Shown: positions 668-1,182 of the stretch, piece after piece
Position numbering within the stretch: position 1 is the first letter of the stretch
Layout of the letters: every line of letters begins with the position of its first letter
From: a virus
DNA length: 21,111 nucleotides
Direction: 5' to 3' (one strand)
IMG/VR virus record: IMGVR_UViG_3300008267_000519
Location: 1-21,111 of that record
The notes under the pieces: model-generated
Told to the model about the DNA's origin: nothing
Database searches by the model: none
What the model saw: the letters and a program-made list of their open reading frames with translations, nothing else
Program-made: the position numbers and the translations under genes

Positions 668-692
668 AAAGCCGGGTTAAGCCCGGCTTTTT
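668..692 (+). terminator. Rho-independent terminator after DUF932 gene
   Basis: A GC-only stem GCCGGG (671-676) pairs with CCCGGC (682-687) around a five-base loop. It is extended by A-T pairs and followed by five T (688-692). It sits directly after the stop codon of the DUF932 gene. Confidence 0.9.
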
Positions 693-706
693 CTATTAAA
701 ATAAAT

Positions 707-735
707 TTGGCTTCCCAGTAAATAAATATTATATT
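707..735 (+). promoter_or_regulatory. Promoter-like site in front of the tRNA region
   Basis: TTGGCT (707-712) is followed by exactly 17 bases and TATATT (730-735), placing a start about 8 bases before the first tRNA. The same -35-like hexamer and spacing recur at 1806-1834 in another gap, which supports both. It is not the TTTG/TAnnTTTG form typical of Bacteroidetes housekeeping promoters. Confidence 0.5.
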
Positions 736-749
736 AATATCATATAAAA

Positions 750-824
750 GGCGGGATGGACTGGAGATGGTTCCAGCTTGGTCTCATAAGCCAAATGACG
801 CAGGTTCGAGTCCTGCTCCCGCAA
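750..824 (+). tRNA. tRNA(CAT), initiator-like tRNA-Met
   Basis: A cloverleaf can be drawn: acceptor 750-756 with 817-823, D-stem CTGG/CCAG (761-764/773-776) with an extra bulged A, anticodon stem TTGGT/GCCAA around CTCATAA (anticodon CAT at 785-787), T-arm GCAGG-TTCGAGT-CCTGC (800-816) and discriminator A824. The acceptor pairs over six bases but positions 1 and 72 are G and A, a mismatch like the unpaired 1:72 of bacterial initiator tRNAs. The GCGGGATGGA start and CTCCCGCAA end also resemble tRNA-fMet. The anticodon stem keeps only two of the three G-C pairs usual in initiators. No CCA is encoded (ACT follows), so host CCA addition is needed. An elongator role cannot be excluded. Confidence 0.85.
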
Positions 825-830
825 CTAAAA

Positions 831-1017
831 CGCTAGATTTTCTAACTCGAAAGAGTGTGTAGGTGCAAGTCCTACCTTGAGTACAATGAGTAAGAGATAC
901 TCACCGGTCTTTGGTCTAAGTCCTTAATAATAGACTCGCTTAAACCGGACAGCGGAATGCCGGTTCTTAGGGCTAAAGGCGGCAATCACACCTCCTCCTT
1001 CGTAGTGTGACTTTTTT
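831..1017 (+). ncRNA. Unassigned structured RNA between two tRNAs
   Basis: No plausible gene is present here. GC content is about 47% over 841-1010 by hand count, clearly above the AT-rich genes around it. Visible hairpins are ACTC-GAAA-GAGT (845-856, GNRA-type loop), GTAGG-TGCAAGT-CCTAC (859-875), TGAGTA/TACTCA (878-883/898-903), AACCGG/CCGGTT (943-948/960-965) nested inside CTAAG/CTTAG (916-920/966-970), and a final terminator hairpin (986-1017). The first two hairpins, followed by CTTGAGTA, look like the variable arm, T-arm and 3' acceptor strand of a long-variable-arm tRNA, but no matching 5' half fits. I compared it by memory with group I and II introns, tmRNA and RNase P RNA and found no core motif. 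The 77 bases from the terminator to the next tRNA hold only weak hairpins. Confidence 0.45.
986..1017 (+). terminator. Rho-independent terminator with CCTCCTT loop
   Basis: The stem TCACAC (986-991)/GTGTGA (1005-1010) is followed by C and six T (1012-1017). The 13-base loop is CTCCTCCTTCGTA, so it displays CCTCCTT (994-1000), the same bases as the anti-Shine-Dalgarno end of 16S rRNA. It ends the putative RNA and possibly the transcript of the first tRNA. Confidence 0.75.
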
Positions 1018-1094
1018 AATGGGGATGCCCTTCAGGTTTCATCAATAGGAAAAAACCGAAATAACTACTCACTAGAATCTCAGGTGGGGAATTT

Positions 1095-1168
1095 GCGCCC
1101 TTAGCTCATTCGGTTAGAGCAACTGACTCATAATCAGTAGGTGCCTGGTTCGATCCCAGGAGGGCGCA
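1095..1168 (+). tRNA. tRNA(CAT), probable tRNA-Ile2 or elongator tRNA-Met
   Basis: A perfect cloverleaf: acceptor GCGCCCT/AGGGCGC (1095-1101/1161-1167), D-stem GCTC/GAGC, anticodon stem ACTGA/TCAGT with loop CTCATAA (CAT at 1129-1131), variable AGGTG, T-arm CCTGG-TTCGATC-CCAGG and discriminator A1168; CCA is not encoded. CAT may read AUG (Met) or, after lysidine modification by TilS, AUA (Ile). The pairs C4-G69 and C5-G68, used by TilS to recognise tRNA-Ile2 in E. coli, are both present, and the CCCTTAGCTCA start resembles E. coli tRNA-Ile2. ATA codons are abundant in the tail genes, which gives such a tRNA a use. The Ile2/Met choice is an inference. Confidence 0.95.
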
Positions 1169-1182
1169 CTAAATTTATTATT

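Follow-up and report, generated by a model that had tools for sequence, protein, structure and literature searches.

ROOL and GOLLD are pseudoknot-rich non-coding RNAs of phages and prophages, which are often located near tRNA islands and whose function is unknown (PMC12286853). Many GOLLD RNAs are longer than 800 nt, and their linkers sometimes hold tRNAs (PMC12286853). Large phages give much space to tRNA arrays, the reason for which is still debated, and these arrays also carry RNAs that are unlike translating tRNAs and are missed by tRNA finders. By niche, ROOL and GOLLD are the nearest known RNAs to the element described here. It likewise occurs near phage tRNA islands: 71 of 107 distinct copies start no more than 5 nt after the 3' end of an upstream tRNA or tRNA-like gene, and 76 of 107 end no more than 20 nt before the next one. 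The element fails the ROOL and GOLLD family models, however, has other helices and is far shorter than GOLLD.

The window, i.e., the whole stretch of DNA that was analysed (21,111 nt; G000), is a 21-kb phage contig with T4-type baseplate genes, and its closest isolates by baseplate protein are Flavobacterium phages (immuto, 46% identity). A sequence-only reading had proposed that positions 831-1017 form one structured, non-coding RNA, which ends in a Rho-independent terminator and could be a phage small RNA, a tRNA relic or a new RNA class. This single RNA had to be divided: the flagged stretch is parts of two separate RNA genes joined, a broken tRNA-Leu-like gene and the first part of a conserved RNA that runs from 886 to 1089 (Table 1). 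We put the probability that the latter belongs, as an intact copy, to a new family of non-coding RNAs in phages at about 85%, a figure that concerns its identity and structure and excludes its role.

Table 1. Features of the tRNA cluster and of the two RNA genes in the window (PK, pseudoknot; TRL, tRNA-Leu-like RNA).
Feature	Position	Strand	Details
Intrinsic terminator between the DUF932 gene and the tRNA cluster	668-690	+	10-pair GC-rich stem, then T run
Promoter-like site before the tRNA cluster	707-735	+	TTGGCT-17-TATATT, 9/12 match; consensus match only
CAT-anticodon tRNA, atypical D-arm	750-825	+	Rfam tRNA, 40.7 bits; homologue in L073
Junction of 45-bp deletion relative to L002 and L003	829-830	+	missing bases: 5' acceptor strand, D-arm, D-loop hairpin
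TRL, 3' half of anticodon-less tRNA-Leu-like RNA	830-885	+	intact copies in L002, L004, L005 etc.; covariation
TRL: D-stem 3' strand	831-833	+	
TRL: anticodon arm remnant	834-844	+	
TRL: variable arm	846-855	+	
TRL: T-arm	859-875	+	
TRL: acceptor 3' strand	876-882	+	followed by A883 and CA 884-885
Complete structured RNA, three predicted H-type pseudoknots	886-1089	+	R1 match 183 bits; alignment of 40 distinct copies
P1 hairpin	887-903	+	covariation; loop 894-897 complementary to 1078-1081
Pseudoknot 1	907-936	+	stem a (PK1a) 907-911 with 918-922; stem b (PK1b) 913-917 with 932-936
Pseudoknot 2	937-965	+	stem a (PK2a) 937-940 with 951-954; stem b (PK2b) 943-948 with 960-965; both covary
Pseudoknot 3	966-1010	+	stem a (PK3a) 966-971 with 997-1002; stem b (PK3b) 986-991 with 1005-1010
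Conserved U-rich tract, internal to the RNA	1011-1017	+	~70 conserved bases after it in all full copies
Conserved core	1021-1059	+	GGGGATGCCC hairpin, stem 1021-1023 with 1028-1030; P4 1035-1039 with 1053-1057
P5 hairpin, loop AATCTC	1068-1088	+	1068-1073 with 1083-1088; covariation p = 0.0005
tRNA-Met (CAT), next gene of the cluster	1095-1169	+	67.7 bits

Using the upstream DUF932 protein as search query, 72 related viral loci were retrieved. As judged by eye, most relatives have a TTTGG...TATATT stretch 5' of the cluster that is similar to the promoter-like site of the window. The order of the cluster is CAT tRNA, flagged stretch, tRNA-Met, which places the stretch between two tRNAs as the sequence-only reading had it, and its GC content is indeed raised, with 47.1% over 841-1010 compared to 29.2% for the window overall. 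The CAT tRNA is probably derived from an initiator tRNA; ARAGORN gives its anticodon as 'ct'. At the end of the contig (20548-21015), a SegE-type GIY-YIG homing endonuclease gene is located.

The first part of the flagged stretch had been likened to the 3' half of a long-variable-arm tRNA without a 5' half, and the missing half was found in L002 and L003, where 45 extra bases lie between window positions 829 and 830. L125 and L382 are further stretches of the L003 contig. Outside the 45 bases, L002 and L003 match the window with 99.99-100% identity, along 829 bp to one side and up to more than 10 kb to the other. Since they carry the 45 bases, the absence of the 5' half in the window record is attributed to a deletion, which may be natural or an assembly error. 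Adding the bases to 830-885 restores a whole RNA of ~98 nt with the acceptor stem GCTCAAG/CTTGAGT, a tRNA-Leu-like D-arm whose loop contains a hairpin, a very small anticodon arm, a variable arm of class II and a T-arm. In the intact RNAs of 17 relatives, 98.9% of the cells pair, and 70 double-changed cells were counted compared to 20 in shuffles (0 of 500). The intact relatives share a GGCGGAATTGGTAGACGC-type D-arm, the T-arm, the discriminator A and, in some of them, the variable-arm hairpin with bacterial tRNA-Leu; unlike it, they have no normal anticodon arm, and the canonical 5-bp anticodon stem with a 7-nt loop did not occur in the 17-sequence alignment of window-type TRL. They further differ from tRNA-Leu in having a D-loop hairpin or a hypervariable insert, which measures 15-130 nt in the commonest class. 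The segment 830-885 is a broken member of this tRNA-Leu-like scaffold family; the label of a tRNA relic fits it, given the 45-bp deletion.

In L004, L005 and L006, the tRNA-Leu-like gene is present without the element. Because tRNA-Met directly adjoins its 3' side there, 886-1094 is a separate insertion, and elements of the 886-1089 type were found elsewhere, in L073 and L098. A different insertion of ~105 nt (AAATGTGTTGTTCCCTTGAGAAAGGAG...) occupies the same place between the tRNA-like gene and tRNA-Met in L018.

A motif from the insertion, GGGGATGCCCNNCAGGTTT, was searched in viral contigs and gave 70 matches, at least three of which are chance matches (L084, L109, L130); nearly all the rest carry the same RNA of ~205 nt. 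The covariance model R1 was built from this first, GGGGATGCCCNNCAGGTTT-selected set, and 40 distinct copies were aligned by sequence alone. R1 aligns to the window with an E-value of about 1e-45 over model positions 1-210 of 210, and it detects the element in nearly all of 88 newly fetched loci, which were chosen by an independent 3' motif pattern among the matches listed, with scores going down to 30 bits. The family is estimated to occur on at least about 150 IMG/VR contigs, and its members are about 200-265 nt long (~204 nt in the window). All of the 14 large carriers (94-465 kb), plus a fifteenth, contain one full-length R1 match per contig; in L121, L122 and L127, a second, partial copy consists of the conserved core only. 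An extra insert of ~50 nt lies in the second pseudoknot of L079, L291, L294, L326 and L342. Stops are present in all three frames in 106 of 107 distinct copies, which bears out the claim that the stretch is non-coding, and a protein-coding gene was rejected because the family is without an open frame. A short, tag-like ORF (in-frame ATG...TAA at 886) was rejected as well, since neither its frame nor its stop is conserved and the region covaries as RNA.

The structure read from the 40 copies comprises P1, three consecutive H-type pseudoknots, a small GGG/CCC hairpin, P4 and P5. It is carried by covariation: 238 double-changed cells were counted, compared to 90 in shuffles (0 of 500), which leave the relatedness of the sequences in, and to a maximum of 93 in slid controls. 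The compensatory changes across homologues that had been named as a check were thereby found. Among 13 sequences less than 80% identical, PK1b, PK2a, PK2b, PK3a and P1 lie above all 2000 shuffles, and p = 0.0005 was obtained for P5. PK1a is nearly invariant across the copies, and PK3b is paired in 57.6% of the cells of the sequence-only alignment; as PK1a hardly varies and PK3b is only partly aligned, just one stem is well supported in each of pseudoknots 1 and 3, compared to both stems in pseudoknot 2. In the window copy, two pairs of PK3a and one pair of PK1a are mismatched. Taken from these comparisons, two, and probably all three, of the predicted tandem H-type pseudoknots are supported.

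The proposal of a structured RNA stands by covariation, whereas thermodynamic folding alone is not above chance: single-sequence folding gave z = -0.49 against shuffles, and the minimum free energy (MFE) structure is unlike the comparative one. An MFE no better than shuffles and the broken tRNA-like half of the window record are consistent with the whole stretch being a functionless spacer of a degenerate tRNA cluster. Covariation across many distinct copies and the presence of one copy per carrier make this extremely unlikely; it is contradicted by the compensatory changes for 886-1089, whereas for 830-885 in the window record it may still be true.

The most conserved part of the element lies 3' of position 1017, where a clean Rho-independent terminator had been assumed. 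This assumption did not survive the comparison: 986-1017 consists of an internal pseudoknot stem and the conserved U-tract, and because stem 986-991/1005-1010 and the U-tract lie inside a conserved RNA, with ~70 conserved bases after them, 1017 is no terminator. A terminator scan of the window, which allows loops of 3-8 only, returned solely 668-690. The core is invariant in the first set because the selecting pattern used the core motif, and covariation in that set is uninformative for the core; in divergent members, the core hairpin reads GTG-GTAAGA-CAC or GCG-GTAAGA-CGC, i.e., the core stem varies to GTG/CAC and GCG/CGC.

In triple-helix stability elements, a U-rich tract, a hairpin, a U-rich strand and an A-rich strand follow each other in this order. 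The same order is found in the 3' part of the element, and the 3' core might act in cis on the stability or processing of transcripts from tRNA operons, possibly by a U-A-U triple helix of 1012-1017 with P4. U-tract changes seem to be paired with A-to-G changes in the A-tract (window 1011-1057): in 8 of 8 variants in which a G precedes AAAACC in the A-tract, the first U-tract contains a non-U, compared to ~2 of 31 others, as counted by eye in sequences that are related and not independent. Furthermore, in L121 (6946-7110) and L106 (2565-2730), the 3' core immediately adjoins the 3' side of a tRNA-like body whose anticodon loop is enlarged, a terminator comes after the core, and promoter-like TTGACT-TATAAT sequences were seen upstream by eye. 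However, the core is usually located 5' of further tRNAs and not at a transcript end, the divergent L289 and L345 misfit a simple triple, and the conservation of the 125-nt pseudoknot domain is higher than a simple end cap would require, which together render a cis-acting role unlikely.

In all of the 40 copies, the P1 loop is complementary to the P5 loop; a kiss between them is plausible rather than proven, because the only changes there are from A-U to G-U. Such loops could allow an RNA-only assembly of the ROOL/GOLLD type, in which the 5' hairpin loop of one molecule pairs with the 3' hairpin loop of another and many copies form a cage or ring. The niche in phage tRNA islands and the pseudoknot-rich fold are shared with these RNAs, and the tRNAs in GOLLD linkers (PMC12286853) recall the L121 core, which directly follows a tRNA-like body. 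The loop pairing could also be intramolecular, however, neither the sequence nor covariance models link the element to an Rfam family, and the length of the element contrasts with that of many GOLLD RNAs (PMC12286853), so that an assembly of this kind is considered improbable.

In Rfam 15 (4227 families), no credible match was found in the element, with E-values up to 5 admitted for the window and up to 10 for L073, L213 and L121; in these scans, only neighbouring tRNAs or tRNA-like bodies score. The Rfam search that had been named beforehand therefore matched no known RNA. Distant BLASTN searches of annotated phages with two versions of the element gave no credible match, the element was not found in GTDB genome contigs scanned with the core pattern, and R1 had no match in the nearest isolate relatives, which are Flavobacterium phage immuto and Microcystis phage Mel-JY01, or in the 484-kb record LR756508. 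No description of the element or of the TRL scaffolds was found in the open-access papers searched. Measured against Rfam 15 and these papers, 886-1089 may be regarded as a new RNA class by homology, and its function could still be of a known sort; the suggestion of a new class holds for this part, with strong covariation and no Rfam match.

The one-piece tmRNA encoded by phages resembles the element in its consecutive pseudoknots and its location near tRNAs. In contrast to tmRNA, the element has no conserved tag reading frame and no acceptor or T-arm of its own, and Rfam and ARAGORN searches for tmRNA made no call in 886-1089. A tmRNA is encoded in the same genomic region of L037, L038, L040, L042, L048 and L059, with the predicted tag ANVELSTMTFEDVMSFVGADYAVAA or a near version in several of them.

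Type III antitoxin RNAs (ToxI and its kin) consist of tandem H-type pseudoknots of about 30-45 nt. The element shares the tandem arrangement but adds a large extra core, and no toxin gene was noticed beside it. Tandem pseudoknots would suit a counter-defence decoy that binds and blocks a host nuclease attacking tRNAs, or a protein of an RNA-guided or toxin-antitoxin defence system. Its place in tRNA arrays, the internal domains that seem to be exchanged between its relatives and the T4-type RNA repair ligase encoded in 6 of 14 carriers are consistent with such a role. The ligase is not clearly enriched, however (6 of 15 carriers compared to 4 of 12 non-carriers), nor is a CCA-adding-type enzyme (6 of 15 compared to 1 of 12). 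Moreover, none of the three pseudoknots is a repeat of another, unlike those of type III antitoxins. A decoy function is therefore rather doubtful.

A compact, pseudoknotted RNA with an invariant core could also be a self-cleaving or self-splicing ribozyme. It does not match the Rfam ribozyme or intron families, and nothing needs to be spliced, because the neighbours on either side are intact in relatives that lack the element; we judge a ribozyme very unlikely. A group I or group II intron was rejected on the lack of an Rfam intron match and on the position of the element between complete genes in relatives.

The preferred reading, a non-coding RNA of its own kind that acts in trans, takes its mechanism from the position of the copies in the arrays. 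The element would be transcribed as a gene cassette together with the tRNAs of the cluster, and the enzymes that trim tRNA ends would free it, the 5' end being left where the preceding tRNA or tRNA-like gene stops and the 3' end likewise being set a few bases before the next tRNA. This route cannot be universal, because in about a third of the copies no tRNA was detected immediately on the 5' or the 3' side; some copies have their own terminator or promoter-like sequence. The freed RNA is predicted to fold compactly, with up to three tandem pseudoknots, a core made of the GGGGATGCCC hairpin and P4, and 5' and 3' hairpins whose loops can pair in the putative kiss. As a stable RNA, it would then act in trans during infection. 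The best single guess for its function, which we hold weakly, is that it binds a host or phage factor tied to tRNA or translation.

The second gene in the flagged stretch leads to a further RNA family, a by-product of the analysis whose importance may exceed that of the element. When the loci were scanned, they yielded 221 unique candidate scaffolds that are not called by ARAGORN, a few of which, at the edges of the list, are probably due to chance. The near-invariant, tRNA-Leu-like scaffold reads AGTCAGG-TGGCGGAATnGGTAGACGC ... ACAGGTTCGAATCCTGT-CCTGACT-A, with the anticodon arm replaced by a hypervariable insert (L110, L074, L103, L136, L105 and others). Among the 130 sequences of the commonest class, the acceptor AGTCAGG/CCTGACT was fixed by selection, as was the D-arm for part of the set, whereas the T-arm, only loosely required by selection, shows 93-100% conservation at most of its positions. 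Insert length in this class has a median of 62 nt (15-130), and the inserts are mostly unrelated; the 208 inserts of all classes fall into 145 sequence clusters, 116 of which contain a single sequence. Their MFE is slightly below that of shuffles (mean z -0.8). Several scaffolds often occur on one contig, with up to six or more (L110). The scaffold pattern was present in at least 120 viral contig stretches compared to five GTDB contigs, all from metagenome-assembled genomes, and as judged by this distribution of contigs, the family is phage-associated. It is independent of the 886-1089 element, because large contigs with scaffolds are often without the latter (6 of 7 checked).

The leucyl-tRNA synthetase LeuRS does not need the anticodon, and the tRNA-Leu-like scaffold RNAs might therefore be charged. 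As a tentative overall picture, the tRNA arrays of large phages would hold two RNA systems: a single-copy RNA with three pseudoknots, and multi-copy scaffolds with hypervariable structured inserts, in which the scaffold, matured and stabilised like a tRNA, would display fast-evolving domains, perhaps as decoys or inhibitors of host factors. Both families are open to direct experiment, as ROOL and GOLLD were, because their ends are defined, their structures are known from comparison and variants are numerous. One insert family with 17 members (ATGGTTATAnCAnnGTGGGTAAAAAA...GTCAnTATAATGGCAGCCC; L020, L012, L032 and others) seems to be conserved, with pseudoknot-like pairings. On the reverse strand of L110 and L136, a shared intergenic stretch, AATCTGAAATCACAACGGGTGGGCGGTTGCGACGAAAGGAGGGTAGCCCACATAC, lies between tRNA-like genes and possibly represents another small RNA.
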